Source: Acidobacteriota bacterium (GTDB lineage Bacteria > Acidobacteriota > Thermoanaerobaculia > Gp7-AA8 > JAHWKK01). From it: 64,000 nucleotides of DNA. The notes beneath the pieces were generated by a model that saw only the letters and a list, made by a program, of their open reading frames with translations, did not search any database and had not been told where the DNA came from. The stretch is taken from the NCBI GenBank assembly GCA_019347945.1, contig JAHWKK010000013.1:1-64000 (forward strand), in the 5' to 3' direction. A program made the position numbers and the translations under genes. This document shows, one piece after another, positions 20,161-40,048 of the stretch. How positions within the stretch are numbered: the stretch's first letter is position 1; each line of letters begins with the position of its first letter.

Positions 20161-22706
20161 CGGTAGTTCACCTCGATCGCTGCTCCGCTGACGACGGCCG
20201 GAACGATCTCGTCCTGCTGATTTCTGAGCTCGAGCGCGGGTACCTCCAGCCAGCTCGAGCCGGCGAGAACGGCCCGGAAGTTCACCGCTGCAACCTCGCC
20301 GCCGGGAGCGAAAGCCAGCGGGCTTCCATCCGCCGAGCGGATCGTGATGATTCCCTGGTCCGACTCGATGTTCACCAGCGGAGGCGTCGCAGGATCGTGA
20401 AGAAACGCTCGTCCGAAGCTCACCGACGTGATGTCGATGGTCGACGGGTCGTACTGCAGACGCAGCTCTGATGTCGTGAGCCCGTCGAGATCAAGCCCTA
20501 CGATCAGCCATGAACCCTCCTGACCGGCGCCAAAGGAGGCGCTGGCGGGCTGGATCGCGACCCGAGGGGTGCGATTCGCAACAATTGACGAGGACGGCGA
20601 GTCGCGCGGTTCGGACTCTTCGGAGATCTGCTGCGGCAGCGTCGCGGCGGCCGAAGCCTCCACTGGTTCCGGCTCGGATGCGTCGGGGACGTAGTTGGCG
20701 GCGACGATCCCGGACGCCGAAGCAGTTGTCGTGACTGACGTCACTGGCGCCCCTCGATCCGTGCCGAGCTCGGAGCTGTCCGGGACTGGCGGATACGGTT
20801 CGGTCGGCGGAGTCGGGGGAGGGACCGAAGGCCCTTCCTCCGGAACACGCGGAGCGGGGGGAGGCGCGACTTCCATTCCCGGAACCGGCTGCTGCTCGAA
20901 CTGCCTTCGTGTCGGGGGGTCGAACGGATCACCACTGGTCATCGACTCCATGCGAGGTGTCGTCCCCCGGAAGGTGAGGTTCGTCTGCGTACCGACCCAC
21001 ATCGGCGCCAGATCCTCTTCGGTGATGTCGGGAATCCGAATGATGTGAGGGGTCATCGTCAGGACGAGATCGGTCGCCTGGCTTCTCGCGCTGCTGTTCG
21101 AGAAGAGCCGTCCGATGAGTGGCAAATCGGACAGGAAGGGGATGTCCTGATCGCTGTCGGCCTCGTCGCGGCGGATGAGGCCGGCGAGGAAGTTGGTCTC
21201 CCCGTCCTTGAGCCGGATCGTCGACTCGATCGAGCGCGTTCCGAAGGTCGGCTGATCGCCGGTGCCCTGCTCCGCGATGTTCGAGACCTCGACCGAGAGC
21301 TTCAGCGTGATCTCGCGGTTATGGTGAACGCGGGGCTCGATCGTGATTTTGATTCCGACGTCGCGGTACTGAAAGGAGGTCGGGGGGGCGAAGACCTGAC
21401 CCGTGCCGGGCTGCTGAGCGATCGCGTTGTACGTCGTGACTGCGATCGGAACCTGCTGCCCGATGAGCAATGTCGCCGACTGGCCCTCGCTGATCCGAAG
21501 CTGAGGCTTTGCGAGAAGGGTGGCCTGACCGGAGGTCTTCATCAGGTTGTAGGTAACGGTGGGAACGGTGAGTGACCAGTTCCCGGAAGTGAGATCCCGA
21601 AAGCCACCGAGGGGAAGCGCAGTGATCGCCGTTCCCGCCTCGTTCGAAAGACCGGCGCTGATCGAGTCTGCGCTGAGATCGAGTCCGATCTCCCGCAGCT
21701 TGCTGGCGTCGATCTGAAGCAGTTCGACCTGTACGACCACCTCGGCCTGCGCCTTGTCATTCGCCTCGATGATCTTTTCTGCGATCAGAACCCGGTCCGC
21801 GGTATCCCGGATCGTGATGGCGTTCATCGCCTTCAGCGCGAACACGTGACGCGCTTCGAGCATCGTACGGACGATGTTCTGTACCTGTTCTGCGTCACCG
21901 TTCGAGAGGTAGAAGGTCCTGATGACCAGATCCTCGTACTCCCGTCTCGTATTCGCGTTATCCGGGATCACGAGGATCGTCTGCTCGTCGAGCACCTTGT
22001 AGAAGTGGGTCGACGCCTGCATGACCCGTTCGAGCGCTTCCTGAGCGGTGACGTCGCGAAGCTCGATCGAGATATTGTCGTCGGGGAGACGCTGATCGAA
22101 CATGATGTTGATGCCGAAGGCGCTTCCGAGCGCCCGATAGATGTCCTTGACCGGTGTCTCGCGTGGAAAGGAGAGCGAGATCGGCTGGTTCGATGCCGGA
22201 TTGAGAATCGGAGGCCGTGAGGTCTCGGTGACCCGCCGCTTCATCTCTTCGATGTCCTGGTACTGCCGGGTGCTCGCTTCCCTCACGGAAGCCATCGCCT
22301 TCGCGAGCTCGATCGCAGCGTACTGATTGGTCGGATCGAGCTCGACCGCGAGCCGGAGCTCCAGAACCGCCATGTCCGGATGGCCCGCGGATCGAAGCTG
22401 TTTCCCTTTTGCGAAGTGCTGCCGGGACGCTTCGAGGCGTGCGTGCTGCAGAGCGGCGCGGAACTTGACGTTGCCGGGATCGAGTCGCAGCGCCTCTTCA
22501 TACGATTCGACGGCACGGTCCCAGTCGCCGGCGAGCTCGTACTCCTGCGCATTCTGCCATGCGCGAAACGTAGTGCATGAGAACGTCATCGCCGCGATCA
22601 GCGCGACGAGCAGAGCCCGGATCAGTCGTGATTGAAATGGCACAGTGGGTAAATCCTTTCCTTGCTCAACTTTGGGACGAGCGGGATCTGAATAGGTCAC
22701 GGTCAT
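20157..22706 (-). CDS. pilQ: Outer-membrane secretin (PilQ/GspD family) with TPR and C-terminal cohesin-like domain
   Basis: An 849-residue pore-forming secretin for the pilus. In order: a lipobox with Cys at about 44 (AMTFSC), TPR-like repeats (about 50-140, e.g. AGDWDRAVESYEEALRLDPGN), an N0/STN domain (about 165-240), an N1 domain (about 250-320), and the secretin domain (about 330-570) with a GQQVPIAVTT motif and ESTIRLKDGETNFLAGLI. A Pro/Ser-rich linker (about 590-715) leads to a cohesin-like beta-sandwich (about 720-849: LDGLTTSELRLQYDPSTIDITSV...VNFRAVLAG). The TPR and cohesin additions are not part of standard PilQ. It overlaps pilP by 4 bases. Confidence 0.9.
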   Translation of the reverse strand: MTVTYSDPARPKVEQGKDLPTVPFQSRLIRALLVALIAAMTFSCTTFRAWQNAQEYELAGDWDRAVESYEEALRLDPGNVKFRAALQHARLEASRQHFAKGKQLRSAGHPDMAVLELRLAVELDPTNQYAAIELAKAMASVREASTRQYQDIEEMKRRVTETSRPPILNPASNQPISLSFPRETPVKDIYRALGSAFGINIMFDQRLPDDNISIELRDVTAQEALERVMQASTHFYKVLDEQTILVIPDNANTRREYEDLVIRTFYLSNGDAEQVQNIVRTMLEARHVFALKAMNAITIRDTADRVLIAEKIIEANDKAQAEVVVQVELLQIDASKLREIGLDLSADSISAGLSNEAGTAITALPLGGFRDLTSGNWSLTVPTVTYNLMKTSGQATLLAKPQLRISEGQSATLLIGQQVPIAVTTYNAIAQQPGTGQVFAPPTSFQYRDVGIKITIEPRVHHNREITLKLSVEVSNIAEQGTGDQPTFGTRSIESTIRLKDGETNFLAGLIRRDEADSDQDIPFLSDLPLIGRLFSNSSARSQATDLVLTMTPHIIRIPDITEEDLAPMWVGTQTNLTFRGTTPRMESMTSGDPFDPPTRRQFEQQPVPGMEVAPPPAPRVPEEGPSVPPPTPPTEPYPPVPDSSELGTDRGAPVTSVTTTASASGIVAANYVPDASEPEPVEASAAATLPQQISEESEPRDSPSSSIVANRTPRVAIQPASASFGAGQEGSWLIVGLDLDGLTTSELRLQYDPSTIDITSVSFGRAFLHDPATPPLVNIESDQGIITIRSADGSPLAFAPGGEVAAVNFRAVLAGSSWLEVPALELRNQQDEIVPAVVSGAAIEVNYR

Positions 22707-28386: not shown

Positions 28387-30654
28387 TTACAGGTCGGTCT
28401 CCATGCTGCTGATGATCGTCCGGGGGAGGTTTTCGAACCGGTCTTCCCAGTCGCCCTGGGCGAGCCGTCCGTCGAAGAAAATGTCTGGCGTACCGGATCC
28501 GCCGACCAGCCCCCAGATCAGGAGTGAGCCGTAATAGATCGGGTTACCGGTGCCCCCGTATTTTCCCTCGTTGTACATGACGCCGTCGAGAATCGGTCCC
28601 TTGTTTGGATCGAGCTTCATCAGAGGTCCGACCCTGTCGTACGCATTGGACGTGCAATCGGCCTGGCTCGATCCGGCGCTGCACGTGACCTCTACCTGAT
28701 TGTCGTGCACCTTCGGCATCCGCGTTTCGGAGCCCGGCGGCTCCCATCCGACCTGGAACACCGCCGGAACTCCATTGCTGTCCTGAGCCAGGGTGGCCGG
28801 CTGAATGAGATTCAGGTAGGGTTCGTGAGGGTCTGAGCAGGTCGTTCCAATGTTGGCCGTGCCACAGGCGTCGGAGTAAGGGACGGGAAGATAGACGGAG
28901 TTCGCCATCAGCGTCGTGGTCGTCCCTCCATCGGTGATCACGACGTTGGTCGGCGGTCCGAGGGCGACGACGATATCGAACCTGTCGTTGTCGTTGAGAT
29001 CCTGGTAGTCCCATTTGTAGTTCGTGTAGTTGACTTTCCACGGATTGGCTCCGGGTGAAGTGCTGCAGAGAATCTGATTCGTGGCATCGAGTGGATCGTG
29101 GCAGAAGCCTGTGCCGGTGACGGTGTCGTACTCCTGGAACCCCTCGTCCCGGAAAGGCTCGAACGGGGCGTTGTACCAGTAGTCGGGCCCGTTCAGTCCG
29201 GCGATCTCGAGCTCGGTGGAATTCACGTAGATGAAGCCCCTCATCAGAAGGTCGTTGCCCTGCAACTTGATCTGTGGTGTGAGGATGGACTCATTCGTCG
29301 AGCCATCGGCGTTTTGCGGATTCGCCGCGGTCGTCGTATCGAAGAAAAAGAAACCCTCCTCACCGGTGGTGAGCGTGTCGACCCATCCCCTGAAGTCTCG
29401 TGATTCCCCCCTTGGGTTGTAGTACTGGCCGGTGCCGGCGTTGTAGCGGAGGTAGTTGATTCCCTGCTGGGTCGCTCCGGTCATTGCGATCTGTTTCCAG
29501 AAGGTGTAGACGGGCCTGGTGAAGATCACCTCTCTCAGGTTCGGGGGGTTGTCCTGGATTTGTCCCTGGAACTGCCCGGAGTAGCCGGAGGCTGCACCAT
29601 CAACGGTGCCGTTCTCGTCGTCGGTGATCGAATCGTAGAGCCACGGCTGGGTGGTGCCGTCCATGGCCGGGGTGCCGCCGGAGTAGGTGAGGTTTCCACG
29701 CGCTCGGGCCTGATACCATGGATCCTCGAACGTCTTTCCGATCAACTGATAGAAGTAGTCGGGTGTCGTCCCGTCGTCGTAGTACGGGTCGTAGCCGTGC
29801 TCGTACTTGATCTCGTCCCACGCGTCGACCCACGGTAGCGCCGACCAGTAACGTTTCTGGCCGAGATCCCCCAGCGAGATGACCTTTCCCCAGTGGACTC
29901 GGAAGGCTCCGTTCTGGCTGATGCCGGCGTTCGACTGCAGCGGTCCGTCGGGACCAGGGAAGGGAAATTCCCCGACGACGGCTTTGACGGTGCGTGTGGA
30001 GATCAGCGGCGTGGTCAGGTCATCGGGAGCGCGATGCTTCTCCGATTGAACCGCGATCGTGGCGATCCCGTACCGGGTGCCGCCGTCGTGGAAGTCGAAT
30101 CCGTTGGTATGGGTGACGATCGTCGACCCGACGATCGGGGGGGCGTAGATGGCGATCCGAGTCACCTGGCCGCCCGATTCCGGGTCGTGGAAGAGGACAT
30201 CGTTGAAATTGTCGAGAAAGTCCCGCCCCTCCTGATTGCTTCGATCGATCAGGATATCGGCACTCTCTTCGTCGACACCGTAAAAGCGGTCCGTAGTGGA
30301 TGCTGTGAAGGGGGAGTCGAACAGCATCTCTTCGTCATCCCAGGGACGGTAGAAGTCGCCGGTATGTCTTTCCTTCTTGAACGCCGCTTCGTTGGCGGCG
30401 TTGTTGACCGGCATGATGCCGTTATCGATCGCCCAATCCGGACCATTGAACCATTCCGCGACGGTCCGCGTCCCCGCCTCGGCGACCTGGAGGGTCTGGA
30501 GGTAGTTGCGCTCGTTGACCGAGATCGCGCTCTCGGTCTCGGATACCGCAACGAATCCGAGCCCGAGAAGTGTCAGCCCCACCATGACCATCAGGCTGAC
30601 GAGAAGAGCCGAGCCCTTCTGATTCTCTTTCACACTTCTGTTTTTCGATCGCAT
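28387..30654 (-). CDS. PilX-like minor pilin / large pilus surface protein
   Basis: A 755-residue protein. The N-terminus (KENQKGSALLVSLMVMVGLTLLGLGFVAVSETE) matches the PilX N-terminal type: a prepilin-like Gly followed by a helix without Glu+5. The long remainder is extracellular in type, rich in Tyr, Trp, Asn and Gly, and includes DLNDNDRFD (about residues 553-561), which has the Asp/Asn spacing of an EF-hand-like calcium loop. It resembles proteins combining PilX with a large surface domain, as PilY1 provides in other pili. It is the last gene before the terminator; the PilW-like gene ends 18 bases upstream. Confidence 0.75.
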   Translation of the reverse strand: MRSKNRSVKENQKGSALLVSLMVMVGLTLLGLGFVAVSETESAISVNERNYLQTLQVAEAGTRTVAEWFNGPDWAIDNGIMPVNNAANEAAFKKERHTGDFYRPWDDEEMLFDSPFTASTTDRFYGVDEESADILIDRSNQEGRDFLDNFNDVLFHDPESGGQVTRIAIYAPPIVGSTIVTHTNGFDFHDGGTRYGIATIAVQSEKHRAPDDLTTPLISTRTVKAVVGEFPFPGPDGPLQSNAGISQNGAFRVHWGKVISLGDLGQKRYWSALPWVDAWDEIKYEHGYDPYYDDGTTPDYFYQLIGKTFEDPWYQARARGNLTYSGGTPAMDGTTQPWLYDSITDDENGTVDGAASGYSGQFQGQIQDNPPNLREVIFTRPVYTFWKQIAMTGATQQGINYLRYNAGTGQYYNPRGESRDFRGWVDTLTTGEEGFFFFDTTTAANPQNADGSTNESILTPQIKLQGNDLLMRGFIYVNSTELEIAGLNGPDYWYNAPFEPFRDEGFQEYDTVTGTGFCHDPLDATNQILCSTSPGANPWKVNYTNYKWDYQDLNDNDRFDIVVALGPPTNVVITDGGTTTTLMANSVYLPVPYSDACGTANIGTTCSDPHEPYLNLIQPATLAQDSNGVPAVFQVGWEPPGSETRMPKVHDNQVEVTCSAGSSQADCTSNAYDRVGPLMKLDPNKGPILDGVMYNEGKYGGTGNPIYYGSLLIWGLVGGSGTPDIFFDGRLAQGDWEDRFENLPRTIISSMETDL

Positions 30655-30672: not shown

Positions 30673-33525
30673 TCAGGGGATGGTGCAGACGCCTGCCGTC
30701 TGAACGACGGTGCAACTGTCGGTCGAGACTCCGTCGGTGTATTCTGCGCAGAAGCTCGTGAGATCAGTGACGGGACGATTGTTGGTTTCGAAGCGCAGAT
30801 CCATCGTGGTCGAGCCGTTGCTCGGAACCACGACCGTCGTCGCCGGCGTGATCGTCAGAGCTCCGGCTGCGCTGTTGAACGAAGTCACTGTGCCGTCGGC
30901 GTAGGTGACTGTCTTGAAGGTGCTGAGGTTGGCTACGCTCCAGGCGATGTTGAAGCGCTGGAGCGTCACATCAGTGCCGCACTGATTCTTCAGCGTGACT
31001 ATGTAAACGGTGTCGCCAGTCTGGGAGGTACTCGTGATGATCGTCGCGTCGAAGACAGTGCCGAAGGCGTCTTTGAAGGGAATCAGGCAGCAGCTCGAGA
31101 CCGACCCTTCGACATACCTGGTGATCGTGGTCGCGCAACCGAGTGTGTCGGTCAGGATCATGTCGACCTTGTACCAGGTACCGGTGGTCATCGGTGCGGA
31201 GAAGTATGCCGTGACTCCGTCGGGCTGCAGGGTCGCGCTTCCGCCGGCGACGTTGCCGCCGCCCGGATCGGTGACGACCATCGAGACGGTGGCGACCTGT
31301 TTGCTGGCCACGACCTCGAAGTCCGCCAGCGACGATCCGCCGCTCATGTCGACCAGATAGGGGCTCGCGCCGCTGAGGCCGTCTCCTTCGATCGTCGTCT
31401 CGAGAAGTGTGACGGTCGCCGAAACGCAGGGGAACTTCGCTTCGGGCGAGGAATAGCCGCTCTTCAGAACGCCCCCCACGCAATCACTCTGTCGGACTGC
31501 CGCAACATAGTAGGTGTAGTAGTCACCCGTGGCTGGTTCGGGAAGGCCAGCATCGACGTAGGAGTACTGCCCGCCGGCCGAGGGGTTGGTGTCGGTCACC
31601 GGGATCACAGTCTGGGAAGTTTCGGTGCCAGTCGCGGCGACGTAGAGGTACCGGACGATCTCGTATTCTCCGACGAGGATCGCCTTGCCATTCACATCGG
31701 TCGTGACGCGATCCCATTGGAGGGTGACGTCGCAAACTCCTCCGGTGCATGACGATCCGGCATCGACTGTCATGACGTTGCCGGGAATGGCCGGCTCCAC
31801 CGATGCCGTCGAGACCGACGCGCTACTCACCGCGGAGTAATCGCTGTAGGCCTGGGCCGTGTCGTTAGCGGAGTTGAGGGCCGGGTCGGAGGCACATTCC
31901 TCCCTGATCCGGGCGCGATAGTAATACGTCGTGCACGAAACCTTCGGATCGTCATCGAGCACCTGGCCGTCCGACGGGACGACTCCGTCATAGATGAGGT
32001 CCCCCTGCCCGAGGGCGGGGTCGAAGGCCGGATCGGTCGATCGGTAAACTTCGTAGTACTCGAGCTCCTGTGCCGACTCGATGTCGACGGCGCTGTCACC
32101 GCAGGCGTTCACGGGAGGATTTCCATTGAAGTCGACGTTGAAAGCGGGCAGCTGGAGAGTCACCGTAATATTGTCGTCAGTCGGTGGAACCGTGCCATCG
32201 CCGGTCACAGCGGTGATGATCGGAACATCCGGCTTCGTGTAATTGATCGGCTGTACCGAGGACAAGCTTGGGTCCGAGCGTTCGCTTCCATAGCTGTTCT
32301 TCGCGACGACAATGAAGTAGTAGCTGGTATTCGGATCGAGACCGCCGACGAAACCGAAGAGGTTCGAACCGGCCGAGACGGGACTCGAGCCGAAGGGTCC
32401 GGCAGGGTTCGTGTCGTAGAGAATCGAATAGGAGTCGACGATGCCGTACTCCGGAGCCTTCCAGTCGACCCGGACGACGCCGCAGCCGATCGAGCATACG
32501 TTGGTGATGAACGGGGCGCCCGGGGGCGTCGTGGTCGGCTCCTGCAGGCCACGACGCCCGAGGTTGCGAGGAATGACGTTGCTCTGAAGCTGATACTGCC
32601 GGTGCTGGGCGGCCGAGGCCACCGAGTCTGTCTGCGCGGCCTCGATCGGGTCGTTCCAGTTCTTATCAGCGAACTCGGTCATACCGATCAGCTCGACATG
32701 AATCGACTGAACGGTTTCCCGCAGATTCCGGGCTTCTTCAGCGGTGGCCGAGGTCGTCACACCGGTTCCGCTCACGGTGTACTGCCCCTCCCCGGCGTTG
32801 GGCGTGATGACATTCGCCGCGAGCGCATCCGAGAAGTAGGTGAAATTCAGGGTCCGGATATTGGTCGCCACGGGAACTCCCGCTTCGGGGGTGCCGTCCT
32901 CTTTCAGAGTGTACCGATAGAGCGTGTAGGGAGGATTCTCGCAGCCCTTGCCGTCGTTGCAGAGGTCGACACCGGAGATGGTCACGAGCGACTCGCTCGA
33001 TCCCCCGGGGTACGCAGCGCGAGGTTTCGCAACGTCCGCGTAGAAGGTGATGCTGTCGGTGTTCGCGGATGGGTCGTCGGATACCAGAGCATAGGTGACG
33101 ATCTCGTCATTACCGGTGGTGACGACTGGAAAGAAGTCGTCGTCTTCCGCCGTCGTGTTCCAGCCGGGCTGATACTCGAGCTCGACACCGTTGTCGGATC
33201 CGGGGTCGGTTTCATAATCGAGGTTTGCGCGAAAAGTGATCGCGTGCTCTCCGATGTACTCGAGCTGTTCATCCGGCTGCTGGAGTGCAACCGAGCCGGT
33301 GGGAAGTCCGTCACGGTCGAAATCGAAACCAGCCATCCGGATCTCGGAAACGAGCGTCTCGAAAGCGACCCGTGTGTTCTGTTGCAGATCACTCGCTTCC
33401 ATCGAGTCTCTAAAGATGATGTTGCTGCGGTCGTAGATCATCAGCGTGGCCACGAAAATGATCGCGAAGATCGCGACGGCGACCATGATCTCGGTCAGAG
33501 TGAAACCTCTGGCTTGGCGTCTCAT
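30673..33525 (-). CDS. Very large PilW-like prepilin with fibronectin type III-like modules
   Basis: A 950-residue protein. Leader MRRQARG and mature FTLTEIMVAVAIFAIIFVATL with Glu+5 are a canonical class III prepilin signal, followed by a PilW-like domain (to about 310). Then at least two to three fibronectin type III-like domains occur: PGAPFITNV...VRVDWKAPEYGIVDSYSILYDT...SYYFIVVAKNSYG at about 330-430, and further YYEVYRS...YYYRARI and EYEIVRYLYV...YYTYYVAAV units to about 690. Beta-rich, Cys-containing segments finish it. The ATG at 33525 has GAGGAGG 6 bases upstream. Typical PilW is about 250-350 residues, so this is an extreme form. Confidence 0.85.
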   Translation of the reverse strand: MRRQARGFTLTEIMVAVAIFAIIFVATLMIYDRSNIIFRDSMEASDLQQNTRVAFETLVSEIRMAGFDFDRDGLPTGSVALQQPDEQLEYIGEHAITFRANLDYETDPGSDNGVELEYQPGWNTTAEDDDFFPVVTTGNDEIVTYALVSDDPSANTDSITFYADVAKPRAAYPGGSSESLVTISGVDLCNDGKGCENPPYTLYRYTLKEDGTPEAGVPVATNIRTLNFTYFSDALAANVITPNAGEGQYTVSGTGVTTSATAEEARNLRETVQSIHVELIGMTEFADKNWNDPIEAAQTDSVASAAQHRQYQLQSNVIPRNLGRRGLQEPTTTPPGAPFITNVCSIGCGVVRVDWKAPEYGIVDSYSILYDTNPAGPFGSSPVSAGSNLFGFVGGLDPNTSYYFIVVAKNSYGSERSDPSLSSVQPINYTKPDVPIITAVTGDGTVPPTDDNITVTLQLPAFNVDFNGNPPVNACGDSAVDIESAQELEYYEVYRSTDPAFDPALGQGDLIYDGVVPSDGQVLDDDPKVSCTTYYYRARIREECASDPALNSANDTAQAYSDYSAVSSASVSTASVEPAIPGNVMTVDAGSSCTGGVCDVTLQWDRVTTDVNGKAILVGEYEIVRYLYVAATGTETSQTVIPVTDTNPSAGGQYSYVDAGLPEPATGDYYTYYVAAVRQSDCVGGVLKSGYSSPEAKFPCVSATVTLLETTIEGDGLSGASPYLVDMSGGSSLADFEVVASKQVATVSMVVTDPGGGNVAGGSATLQPDGVTAYFSAPMTTGTWYKVDMILTDTLGCATTITRYVEGSVSSCCLIPFKDAFGTVFDATIITSTSQTGDTVYIVTLKNQCGTDVTLQRFNIAWSVANLSTFKTVTYADGTVTSFNSAAGALTITPATTVVVPSNGSTTMDLRFETNNRPVTDLTSFCAEYTDGVSTDSCTVVQTAGVCTIP

Positions 33526-33536
33526 GTCTGGCCTCC

Positions 33537-34088
33537 TCACAGCGTCCGGTCGACTTTCGTCGTATCGAACATCACGAATCGATCGCGCAGTCGTTCGTCC
33601 CATTCGACGAAGACCCTGATCCTGAAGATAGGGACTTCATCGAATTGGAAAGGCGCGGTACCTGTGGGATTGACCGCGCTGATGATCACATTGATATCGC
33701 CGTTGCCGAGCCCCTGCAGTGCCAGGAGATCACTCCAGTTCTGCAGATACCCGTTTGCGTCCTTCGTTGCGTCCCCTTTGTCCGTCGACGCGACTCGAAT
33801 GACGCTGTTCGGATATGTCTGGCCTCCGAACGTGACGTCGGCCCCGGTGACGTCCGTCAAGCCGAAGGAATCCTCGACCGTCACACGCGTGATCGGGGAG
33901 ATGTCCTCCATGATCCTCGTGCCGACCGAGATCGCCCGAGTCATCTGCTTGCCGCTGTAGACGTTTCTCTGTCCCATGAAAAACAGACTCATGATCGAGA
34001 TCAGGACCATGCCGAGAATTGCCATCGCGATGAGAACCTCGACCAGGTTGTAGCCGAGTTGGGACCGCCTCTTATGTTCTTGTCTCAC
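33537..34088 (-). CDS. PilV-like minor prepilin
   Basis: A 183-residue prepilin: leader EHKRRSQLG, mature start YNLVEVLIAMAILGMVLISI with Glu+5, then a PilV-like beta region (NPTGTAPFQFDEVPIFRIRVFVEWDERLRDRFVMF). The GTG at 34088 has GGAGTGAG just upstream and lies 4 bases from the stop of the FimT-like gene. The frame is open further upstream, but that stretch overlaps the neighbour. Confidence 0.82.
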   Translation of the reverse strand: MRQEHKRRSQLGYNLVEVLIAMAILGMVLISIMSLFFMGQRNVYSGKQMTRAISVGTRIMEDISPITRVTVEDSFGLTDVTGADVTFGGQTYPNSVIRVASTDKGDATKDANGYLQNWSDLLALQGLGNGDINVIISAVNPTGTAPFQFDEVPIFRIRVFVEWDERLRDRFVMFDTTKVDRTL

Positions 34089-34092
34089 GTTC

Positions 34093-34611
34093 TCACTCCA
34101 TCCTGATTCGTCCGGACCTGCTGACCGTGACGGTGTAGATTGGCCTTGCGACGTCAAGATCGGTTCTCACCTGTAGAGTGCTCTCCACACTCGGCATCGA
34201 AACCGATCCGTTCGTTAGAAAGATGATGTCGAGATAGTCGTCGGTGTCGGCGCTGTCGGGGAACGTCGTGGTGCCGAAGTAGACCGTCTCGAACATCTCG
34301 GTCTGCCCGACTTCAGTCCACGCGATCCCGCCGTCCGCACTCGTGTCGTAGACCCCATCGAAAAGTCTGTAGGTCCGCTTGTCGGTGCCCGACTCGAAGG
34401 CAATTTTCGTCGGGTGATACTCCGAGATCGCCGTCTGCCGCGCCTCCCTCAAATCCATCACGAACTCTCTCGCGGCGTTCTTGACCCTCTGCCCGCGCAT
34501 GTATCCCACGAAATTTGGAATCGTTACCAGTGAGACGAGTCCGATGATCGCGACGACCACGAGCGCTTCTGCCAGCGTATATCCGGCCTGACCTCGGTTT
34601 GTTCTCTTCAT
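34093..34611 (-). CDS. FimT/GspH-like minor prepilin
   Basis: A 172-residue prepilin: leader TNRGQAG, mature start YTLAEALVVVAIIGLVSLVTIPNF with Glu+5, then the FimT/GspH pattern (VKNAAREFVMDLREARQTAISEYHPTKIAFE...) ending in TVTVSRSGRIRME, a typical GspH C-terminal strand. The ATG at 34611 has GGAGG at the expected distance and lies about 15 bases after the start site predicted from the sigma-54-like promoter. First gene of the structural prepilin operon. Confidence 0.87.
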   Translation of the reverse strand: MKRTNRGQAGYTLAEALVVVAIIGLVSLVTIPNFVGYMRGQRVKNAAREFVMDLREARQTAISEYHPTKIAFESGTDKRTYRLFDGVYDTSADGGIAWTEVGQTEMFETVYFGTTTFPDSADTDDYLDIIFLTNGSVSMPSVESTLQVRTDLDVARPIYTVTVSRSGRIRME

Positions 34612-34636
34612 CGGACCTCCTGGGCATCCCCCATAA

Positions 34637-34652
34637 CGCATTGGAGGTGCCA
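34637..34652 (-). promoter_or_regulatory. Sigma-54 (RpoN)-type promoter for the prepilin operon
   Basis: The minus strand reads TGGCACCTCCAATGCG. The GG and GC dinucleotides have exactly the spacing of the -24/-12 consensus (TGGCACG-N4-TTGCA), with 5 of 6 conserved bases in TGGCAC-N-type context and ATGC for TTGC. Transcription would begin near 34626, just ahead of the Shine-Dalgarno and ATG of the FimT-like gene. Confidence 0.65.
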
Positions 34653-34758
34653 CGCTCGATATTCATTAGCAAACGTCGGCAAAAGTGTGGGTTAGCTGAC
34701 CACTTTCTCATCGATCATCGGTTTTGGAGCCGAGCGCATTGTTACTAAATGTACCAAG

Positions 34759-36444
34759 TCAGCCGCCGAAATGCAGCGGGAACTCCATCAAAACCGATGT
34801 CCCCCCCTCCGGACGGGCTTCCACCCGGACGTCTCCCTGATGATGGAGAAGGATCTTCCTGGTCAGGGCCAGTCCCATCCCGGTTCCCGCTGGCTTGCTC
34901 GTCGCGAACGGAAGGAAAATCCTCGGGAGGAACTCCGGGTCGATTCCGGGCCCGTTATCGTCGATCTGCACCGACGGAACCGGATCCCGGACGACCTTCA
35001 CCCGCACCAGGGGCGAATCGGTCGATTCCACCGCTTCGGCCGCATTCCGGACGATATTCTCGATGGCGCTCGCGATGAGCACCCGGTCTCCGCGAACGCT
35101 CACTTCGGCGGCCTCGATCTCGACCGGTATCTCGACTTCGAGTCTGTCGACGACATTCCGGACGATCTCATCGAGGCGGACTTCCTCCATTTCCGGCTCG
35201 ATCGGCCTGGCAAATCGGAGGAGAGAAGCCACGGTGTCCGAGATTCTGGTTCCCTCCGACTCCGCTTCGACGATCCGACGCTCCCGATCCTCCTCGGAAC
35301 CACGCCGGGCCAGACGGAGGTAGCCGAGAAGAGTCGAGAGCGAGTTCCTCAGCTCGTGCGCGATTCCCGCCGAGATCTCACCGAGCGAAGCGAGCGCCTG
35401 AATGTCGTGCATCCGGCTTTCGAGACGTTTCACTTCGCTCAGGTCGCTGAACAGGGCGAGCATGCCGAGCGACTCACCGGTCTCGCTCCGCACGGGGACG
35501 GTGGTGAGTCCGATGGTGATCCCGGATGGAAGGAGCATCTCGTGCCGGGTCAGGGGCAGCTGTTCGAGATGGGAGCGCTCGAGCGTTCTCGCGAGAGCCG
35601 TATCGCCAAGCACATTCTTCAATGGGCGTGGCCCGTCGGTCGGCGATACGTCGAGGATCTCCTGTCCGGCGCGATTGATCCTGGTGACGTTCCCCTCACG
35701 ATCGATTGCGATGAATCCGGAGCTCAGATTGCGAGTGAGCAGATTCGTGAGCAGGTCGAGGTCGTCGGCCCGGATCCTTTCGGACTCGTGCAGGCGGCGA
35801 AGCTCTGTTTCCTGACGCTTGAGAGTTTCGATGGAGCTCCGAAAGGTCTCGACCAGAAATCGCTCGTCGGTCGTCGCGGAAGCGCGCTCTCCAAGGAGCG
35901 CGGAGTCCCTCAGCATCGTATCGATCGGGCGCGTGATTCGAGGCAGGAGCACCAGGAGGAGCACCAGACTGCCGATCGTTGCGGCAATCACGAGCCCGGC
36001 GATCCAGAAAAAGCGACGCCTGGCCTCGTCGAAAGGGGAGGAGTCGAAATAGAGAAGGAGCCGTCCGTGGGAGCTGCGCTGTTCCACGACCGCGAGGCCA
36101 GGTCCGGCGAGCCCTGATCTGATTGTGCCACGGCCACTTTCCAGCTCGACGGCGACCGTTCCCGACTGCGCCCGGATCGAGTCGAGAACCCGTCGCAGGC
36201 GGTCGGGCGAGGGCTCCGAGACCGCTTCGACCGAGCGTTGCGCGGCGAGAGCGATCGCCTGCTGCTGTCGATGACTCGCCGCTCCCACCTCTGCCATCGC
36301 CGTCTGCAACTGAAGAAGAAGGAAGAGGATGATGAAGATCAGAAACCCCGTCAGGGCCGCGATGAACCACCGGACATTCCGGCTGAAGCTCACCGGACCG
36401 ACCGTCCGCCTGGTTTTCTCCGTCGGAGCTCCGTTCTCGCTCAT
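34759..36444 (-). CDS. PilS-like sensor histidine kinase
   Basis: A 561-residue inner-membrane kinase. Two membrane helices (about 24-47 and 140-165) flank a periplasmic domain of ~95 residues. A HAMP-like segment (ITRPIDTMLRD), a PAS domain (SSGFIAIDREGNVTRINRAGQEILDVSP), a HisKA H-box (GEISAGIAHELRNSLSTLLGY, His in AHELRN) and a HATPase domain (ENIVRNAAEAV; DDNGPGID; GTGMGLALT) follow. The ATG overlaps the pilD stop by 4 bases, so it is co-transcribed with the prepilin peptidase, and the next operon starts with a sigma-54-type promoter. This fits a PilS role, but the NtrC-type regulator (PilR) is not adjacent in the window. Confidence 0.85.
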   Translation of the reverse strand: MSENGAPTEKTRRTVGPVSFSRNVRWFIAALTGFLIFIILFLLLQLQTAMAEVGAASHRQQQAIALAAQRSVEAVSEPSPDRLRRVLDSIRAQSGTVAVELESGRGTIRSGLAGPGLAVVEQRSSHGRLLLYFDSSPFDEARRRFFWIAGLVIAATIGSLVLLLVLLPRITRPIDTMLRDSALLGERASATTDERFLVETFRSSIETLKRQETELRRLHESERIRADDLDLLTNLLTRNLSSGFIAIDREGNVTRINRAGQEILDVSPTDGPRPLKNVLGDTALARTLERSHLEQLPLTRHEMLLPSGITIGLTTVPVRSETGESLGMLALFSDLSEVKRLESRMHDIQALASLGEISAGIAHELRNSLSTLLGYLRLARRGSEEDRERRIVEAESEGTRISDTVASLLRFARPIEPEMEEVRLDEIVRNVVDRLEVEIPVEIEAAEVSVRGDRVLIASAIENIVRNAAEAVESTDSPLVRVKVVRDPVPSVQIDDNGPGIDPEFLPRIFLPFATSKPAGTGMGLALTRKILLHHQGDVRVEARPEGGTSVLMEFPLHFGG

Positions 36445-37232
36445 AGGAAGAGGATGTCGTAGATCTCCGGACCGAAAAAGATGACCCCTAGAAATGCCAG
36501 TCCGAGAAACGGGCCGAAGGGGAGCGCCACGCGCAACCCCTGCCGCTGACTCAACCCGAGGCTGATGCCGAACACCGCGCCGAGGATCGAGGCGATGAAG
36601 ATCACCGGGACGATTGCCTTCCATCCCGATACGGCACCGATCATCGCCAGCATCTTGATGTCTCCGCGACCCATGCCCTCCGTTCTCCGCAGCAGCCAGT
36701 AGACCAGCGAGATCAGGATGAGGATGCCGGCGCCGACCGCGGCTCCGATGAGCGAATCATTCAAAGAGGTCGACAGCAGCAGGCGCGAATGGAACCGGCC
36801 GATCTCGAGCGCGCCGATGAACAGCCCGATGATGAACCCCGGGAAGGTCAGTGCATTCGGAAGGAGCTGGGTATCGAGATCGATGAAGATCAGAGCGATC
36901 ACGATCGCGAGGATTGCGGCGAGCATGAGGCCCGGTACGGTCGCTCCCGCGAACAGATACGCGGCGACGAACGCGGCTCCGGTCGCAATCTCGACGAGCG
37001 GATAACGGATCGAGATCGCAGCTCCGCACGCCCTGCACTTTCCGCCGAGAATGATCCAGCTCAGAACCGGCAGATTGTCGTACCAATGAATGCGCTGCCC
37101 GCAACCGGGGCATCGGCTCGGGGGAGCATTCAGCGACTCACCGATCGGAAGCCGGTGGATGACGACGTTGAGAAAGCTTCCGATGATCAATCCGAGTACG
37201 AACGCTGCGCCGATGAAAATCGACCTCTCCAC
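36441..37232 (-). CDS. pilD: Prepilin peptidase / N-methyltransferase PilD
   Basis: A 263-residue membrane aspartyl protease (A24A family) that cuts the leader of prepilins after Gly and methylates the new N-terminus. It has the cytoplasmic zinc-binding tetracysteine loop (CPGCGQ...CRACGA, about 42-72) and two catalytic Asp residues, in FIDLDTQLLPNALT and GRGDIKMLAMIGA. A GTG start at 37232 is likely, though the Shine-Dalgarno is weak. It lies 50 bases after tRNA-Ala on the same strand. It would process all seven prepilin-like proteins encoded between 18.6 and 34.6 kb. Confidence 0.92.
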   Translation of the reverse strand: MERSIFIGAAFVLGLIIGSFLNVVIHRLPIGESLNAPPSRCPGCGQRIHWYDNLPVLSWIILGGKCRACGAAISIRYPLVEIATGAAFVAAYLFAGATVPGLMLAAILAIVIALIFIDLDTQLLPNALTFPGFIIGLFIGALEIGRFHSRLLLSTSLNDSLIGAAVGAGILILISLVYWLLRRTEGMGRGDIKMLAMIGAVSGWKAIVPVIFIASILGAVFGISLGLSQRQGLRVALPFGPFLGLAFLGVIFFGPEIYDILFL

Positions 37233-37282: not shown

Positions 37283-37358
37283 TGGTGGAGCCGATGGGGA
37301 TCGAACCCACGACCTCCTGAATGCCATTCAGGCGCTCTCCCAGCTGAGCTACGGCCCC
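37283..37358 (-). tRNA. tRNA-Ala(GGC)
   Basis: Folds as a standard cloverleaf on the minus strand: acceptor GGGGCCG paired with CGGCTCC, a D-arm with AGCTCAGCTGGGAGAGC, anticodon stem CCTGA/TCAGG with loop ATGGCAT (anticodon GGC, plus-strand bases 37323-37325), a T-arm with GGGTTCGATCCC, discriminator A and an encoded CCA (37283-37285). Confidence 0.97.
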
Positions 37359-39950: not shown

Positions 39951-40048
39951 GGAGGCGAATGGGGTCTGGCGGCCCCCGCGGTCTTCAAAACCGTTGCGTC
40001 GGCGCGAAGGCGTCGATGGGTTGGTTCGATTCCGACACGCCTCCGCCA
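39951..40048 (+). tRNA. selC: tRNA-Sec(TCA), selenocysteine
   Basis: A 98-base tRNA with GGAGGCG paired to CGCCTCC, a long extra arm (GCGTCGGCGCGAAGGCGTC region), an anticodon loop CTTCAAA giving anticodon TCA (39985-39987), a T-arm with GGTTCGATTCC, discriminator G and an encoded CCA. The length, the large variable arm and the TCA anticodon together identify selC. The convergent reductase gene ends 3 bases after it. Confidence 0.95.

Follow-up and report, generated by a model that had tools for sequence, protein, structure and literature searches.

The window, a stretch of 64,000 nucleotides (64 kb) from an Acidobacteriota genome, carries on its minus strand a minor-prepilin operon preceded by the genes for a sensor histidine kinase and the prepilin peptidase PilD (Table 1). 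The kinase gene and pilD share 4 bp (ATGA, 36444-36441), which agrees with the coupling of the two genes assumed in the original prediction for this locus. A tRNA-Ala (GGC; 37283-37358, minus strand) separates pilD from an opposite-strand TonB/ExbB-like group, named by reading, and a selenocysteine tRNA was called by ARAGORN at 39951-40048 on the plus strand. Further prepilin-like starts lie near the secretin gene at 20280 and 19690 (minus strand), and a scan of the 64-kb window found no copy near them of the inverted repeat described below.

Table 1. Features of the minor-prepilin locus (coordinates are those of the window)
Feature	Position	Strand	Basis
PilX-like protein	28387..30654	-	Pfam PilX_N 22.6 bits, below cut-off 25.5
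Long minor prepilin, PilW-like position, weak fibronectin III match	30673..33525	-	Pfam N_methyl 4.6e-07
Minor prepilin, PilV-like position	33537..34088	-	Pfam N_methyl
First prepilin of operon, GspH/FimT type	34093..34611	-	Pfam N_methyl 1.1e-05, GspH 4.9e-05
Shine-Dalgarno AGGAGGT	34615..34621	-	Sequence
Predicted transcription start	34626	-	Inferred by placing C of GC at -12
-24/-12 sigma-54 promoter TGGCACCTCCAATGCG	34637..34652	-	Sequence and conservation in relatives
Candidate enhancer TGGTACATTTAGTAACA, 17-bp inverted repeat	34740..34756	-	Consensus TGTTAC-N5-GTAACA, conserved in relatives
Sensor histidine kinase, two membrane segments (26-44, 148-166), PAS-like region, HisKA, HATPase_c	34759..36444	-	Domain and hydropathy analysis
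Prepilin peptidase PilD	36441..37232	-	Pfam A24_N_bact and Peptidase_A24

A sigma-54-type element was expected before the first prepilin and is present there. The GG and GC of TGGCACCTCCAATGCG are ten bases apart, its 3' end lies 25 bases from the ATG (34611) of the GspH/FimT-type prepilin, and the predicted transcription start precedes this ATG by 15 nt. The sigma-54 consensus is given as mrNrYTGGCACG-N4-TTGCWNNw (PMC2725144), and TGGCACCTCCAATGCG matches TGGCAC-N5-TTGC at 9 of 11 scored positions. Six sites on the two strands of the 64-kb window, TGGCACCTCCAATGCG among them, score equally, so that the consensus score alone is little proof and the claim is carried by position and conservation; these six sites also speak for the alternative that the match arose by chance and that the operon uses another promoter. 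The original prediction proposed a genome search for rpoN and for an orphan NtrC-type regulator, and both were found. The rpoN gene lies on another contig (G000:C10; Pfam Sigma54_DBD, 1.9e-67), and the genome encodes 11 strong AAA+ sigma-54 activator domains (PF00158). In genomes of the same order, whose kinases are ~36 to 44% identical to that of the window, a GG-N10-GC element is found behind the kinase gene, usually with a prepilin next.

Enhancer sites upstream of the promoter had also been proposed as something to look for, and a conserved 17-bp inverted repeat, TGTTAC-N5-GTAACA, was found there. The window copy, TGGTACATTTAGTAACA, starts two bases past the kinase stop and is the only sequence in the 64-kb window with at least 10 of 12 matches to the repeat. 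Its centre is ~122 bp upstream of the predicted start, and it is separated from the promoter by 104 bp, start to start. Activator sites of sigma-54 promoters are described ~70 to 150 bp upstream (PMC3844500), a range that includes the candidate site near -122.

The repeat and promoter together were found at 17 of 96 scored kinase loci, compared with 11 of 19,200 dinucleotide shuffles (200 per locus); the 96 loci omit 10 named loci that duplicate genomes already included and four with too little sequence. Of these 17 matches, 16 are at loci that a loose prepilin pattern had picked out (41 in all, false matches included). A scan of 106 loci, most of them chosen because of the kinase or an activator, gave 18 matches to this module and one in the reversed control. 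Sixteen of the 18 precede a prepilin, and at L061 and L064 the module stands before PilX-like starts that were judged by eye, the prepilin pattern's own match at L061 being in the wrong frame. The module scan of Nitrospirota loci with adjacent kinase and regulator genes gave no matches.

Start-to-start spacing between repeat and promoter is 101 to 105 bp in most Thermoanaerobaculia (115 bp in one) and 122 to 127 bp in other classes, with single cases of 80 and 51 bp. The distances between these clusters amount to roughly one or two turns of the helix, which would fit a bound protein that has to face the polymerase; the spacing vector (R, 0.69) gives no clean test of this, because the rows are related by kinship. 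Within the window's own genome, repeats with one mismatch occur at five places in all (11 rows for the control pattern). A promoter was sought behind each of the five and was found only at the window site, and no further target is therefore claimed in this genome.

The arrangement was also recovered by a gene-blind search of 297 Acidobacteriota genomes, in which the pattern consisted of repeat, spacer, and promoter. The search matched 19 places in 18 genomes, and the reversed pattern matched seven; the site in the window does not appear because its repeat is one mismatch off the pattern. Fourteen of the 19 places lie directly before a prepilin (13, including L245, which the prepilin pattern missed and which was counted by eye) or a PilY1-like gene (1). 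The other five are L250, L253, L255, L256, and L259, the prepilin pattern match at L256 having been judged false. Twelve out-of-class genomes have a match, and all but G081, whose site precedes no prepilin, were searched for relatives of the window kinase; of these 11, nine have one at most 400 bp upstream, one has it 2.5 kb upstream, and one has none nearby. In G019, a 2.0-Mb genome, a second target lies on contig C49 (L096/L252), where the repeat and a near-perfect sigma-54 promoter precede the gene for a PilY1-like protein whose start is von Willebrand-like.

Conservation, the fixed spacing, and the motif-only search of the phylum together make a chance match at TGGCACCTCCAATGCG extremely improbable. 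We have high confidence, from these comparisons, that the sigma-54 promoter before the minor-prepilin operon is real, and the TGTTAC-N5-GTAACA repeat is likely an enhancer. The repeat is new here. No literature on the arrangement of candidate enhancer, sigma-54 promoter, and neighbouring kinase was found in open-licence PubMed Central text, and Acidobacteria are not named in the text of a survey of sigma-54 regulons (PMC12316311).

The kinase itself had been described as PilS-like, and its features do not agree with that description. It has two hydrophobic segments on the Kyte-Doolittle scale, with ~100 residues between them, versus the six membrane segments described for PilS (PMC6058289), and another kinase of the same genome, on contig C5, has four at the same threshold. 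In a 58-row tree, kinases that adjoin PilR-type regulators form a clade with the C5 kinase (100/100), and the window kinase is outside it, in a 10-row clade from the same order (100/99) within a larger Thermoanaerobaculia set (99/95). No PilR-type gene adjoins the window kinase, and NCBIfam has no family above cut-off for it or for the candidate regulator discussed below. The gene listings of 76 of the 80 named kinase loci include pilD, and several of these loci also hold a separate PilS-PilR pair. Identification of the window kinase as PilS was rejected on topology, tree, synteny, and promoter repeat, and a PilS label on it is likely a misannotation. Two records among the loci (L168 and L199), titled Bifidobacterium breve and Acidimicrobiia, hold Acidobacteriota-like pilus loci, and their titles look wrong.

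PilS and PilR have their own place in these genomes. Sigma-54 control of pilA by PilSR is described as widespread (PMC6058289), and in Geobacter a sigma-54 pilA promoter is reported behind pilR (PMC2725144). The acidobacterial PilS-PilR pair lies apart from the window-type module and precedes pilA, and the window's genome has both a PilS-type kinase (that on C5) and a PilR-type regulator (G000:C7, L005). Of 12 pilR loci from Acidobacteriota, 11 have both a prepilin-like start and a -24/-12 element with 9 or more of 11 matches in the 900 bp behind pilR; which of the two comes first is unclear at L178. The two groups of promoters carry different repeats: TGACA-N5-TGTCA (at least 9 of 10 matches) precedes 9 of 11 pilA promoters and none of 17 minor-pilin promoters, and GTTAC-N5-GTAAC (at least 9 of 10) precedes 15 of the 17 minor-pilin promoters and none of the 11 pilA promoters.

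These repeats bear directly on the possibility that the kinase is PilS and that PilR drives the prepilin promoter. The general kind of kinase and promoter would be the same, the PilR-type regulator of this genome is likewise apart from any kinase seen, and a P. aeruginosa pilR mutant is reported to show changed minor-pilin genes (PMC6058289). However, the window kinase belongs to a separate clade and has a different membrane topology, PilR-type repeats precede pilA rather than minor-pilin operons, and PilR-type regulators pair with another kinase even within the same locus. On this evidence, PilS-PilR control of the prepilin promoter is quite improbable. What stands of the original interpretation is the sigma-54 promoter of the prepilin operon, rpoN, and the enhancer-like site; a PilS-like kinase working with PilR does not.

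The best partner candidate for the kinase in the window's genome is an orphan NtrC-type regulator on another contig (G000:C15:58114-59484). It has a PF00158 match, a GAYTGA loop (GAFTGA-type), and a C-terminal helix-turn-helix; a receiver domain is suggested by its alignment over the full length to the AtoC/NtrC models, with scores under their cut-offs. The partner had been predicted not to be adjacent to the kinase, and indeed the window's contig (C13) has none of the genome's PF00158 matches.

Linkage in other lineages suggests a connection between this type of regulator and the kinase. A C15-type regulator lies directly behind the kinase in six genomes of family f9, where the C-terminus of the adjoining regulators is divergent and shortened. 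It is on the kinase's contig, 7 to 35 kb off, in G041, G032, G059, G035, and G058 (on the opposite strand in G058). In 4 of the 11 out-of-class genomes, it lies downstream by 6.6 to 7.1 kb and on one strand with the kinase. At L162 and L176, it is the last gene of an unbroken run of pilD, kinase, prepilin, PilX, and PilY1 genes. The two genes are unlinked in f1 and f2; 17 of 18 f2 genomes have a regulator orthologue (53 to 62%), which is on a different contig from the kinase in every genome that also has the kinase. Six of the 18 (G003, G007, G010, G013, G017, and G018) have the regulator with no orthologue-level kinase match, and in G009 the repeat is kept and the search found no regulator orthologue. 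These absences, the lack of linkage in f1 and f2, and the altered C-terminus in f9 count against the pairing. We propose, with moderate confidence, that the C15-type regulator is the partner of the window kinase.

Family f28 complicates the role of this regulator at the DNA. Its genomes have the strongest repeats and promoters of all, and the regulator ends after the ATPase domain, without a DNA-binding domain, in all five copies examined (L263 to L267); a search of the 700 bp downstream of it gave no separate DNA-binding domain. Because the enhancer is kept there and the regulator lacks this domain, the C15-type regulator is only a candidate for the enhancer-binding protein. Promoter and enhancer could be as described and the enhancer bound by another protein, either a different activator or some other kind of regulator, the C15-type regulator acting only as an ATPase or being uninvolved. 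The f28 regulators, G009, and the f2 genomes with a regulator and no kinase would all fit, as would the activator types L002 and L003, which are among the other activators present in all four compared genomes. However, f2, f4, f10, and several further families with the module retain the helix-turn-helix, and no other activator type was linked to the module in queries made from this genome. Binding by another protein is thus unlikely but far from negligible, and in lineages that keep the DNA-binding domain the C15-type regulator is probably the enhancer-binding protein.

Our preferred reading, to which we give a probability of about 0.65, is that the kinase, the C15 regulator, the repeat, and the sigma-54 promoter drive the minor-prepilin operon in parallel to PilS-PilR. 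The kinase, made together with PilD, would use its periplasmic loop (~100 residues) to sense a signal, the likeliest being how many minor pilins are present or in what state they are, and would phosphorylate the orphan regulator. The phosphorylated regulator would bind the TGTTAC-N5-GTAACA repeat, the DNA would loop, and sigma-54 polymerase would open the minor-prepilin promoter, alongside PilS-PilR control of pilA. Genome comparison shows the promoter, the repeat, their spacing, a separate kinase clade, and regulator-kinase linkage in other lineages; we infer phosphotransfer, binding of the regulator to the repeat, looping, and the nature of the signal. The strict motif was found in only 18 of 297 genomes, which counts against this reading.

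Minor pilins therefore appear, from the sequence comparisons, to have their own control switch, separate from that of the main pilin. A broader version, which we hold tentatively and at slightly less than even odds, is that Acidobacteriota have two sigma-54 switches for the pilus that work in parallel, each with its own operator code: PilS-PilR with TGACA-N5-TGTCA for the major pilin and the kinase and NtrC-type regulator with TGTTAC-N5-GTAACA for the minor pilins, the regulator often lying inside the operon that it drives. As the f28 regulator lost its DNA-binding domain and the enhancer was kept, enhancer binding and ATPase work may in f28 be split between two proteins. If there are two switches, the ratio of minor to major pilins could be set independently by the cell. 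Minor pilins prime and tip the type IV pilus, and control of their supply is known mainly from Pseudomonas; the conserved kinase, enhancer, and promoter would provide a testable minor-pilin switch in a large, little-studied soil phylum. Furthermore, a likely misannotation is corrected, and the two repeats could be used to assign NtrC-type regulators to pilus genes by sequence.

Several known systems resemble parts of this arrangement. In Desulfovibrio vulgaris, DVU2114 is described as a response regulator that depends on sigma-54 and has a conserved motif in front of pilin genes, as would be the case here, but its targets resemble Tad/Cpa pili, and the strings GTTAC and GTAAC are absent from the text of that study (PMC3333781). 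Myxococcus xanthus, likened here by description, has two related pairs, PilR1S1 and PilR2S2, in one type IV pilus cluster, both of which are reported to be necessary for pilus assembly (PMC6060248). A general likeness is also seen to PilS-PilR and pilA, in which a sensor kinase and an NtrC-type activator act through an upstream site on the sigma-54 promoter of a pilin gene; here, the kinase clade, topology, regulator type, and repeat are different, and the genes are minor prepilins rather than pilA. AlgR, of the FimS-AlgR (AlgZR) system of P. aeruginosa, is not known to be an NtrC-type regulator, and the module described here differs from that system in being tied to sigma-54 and an NtrC-type regulator. 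FimS-AlgR is reported to control the fimU-pilVWXY1E minor pilin operon and is similar in being a two-component system for minor pilins that is separate from PilSR (PMC5979040). FimS responds to minor-pilin loss and has been proposed to monitor minor pilins (PMC5979040), and it is by analogy with FimS only that the window kinase may sense them.
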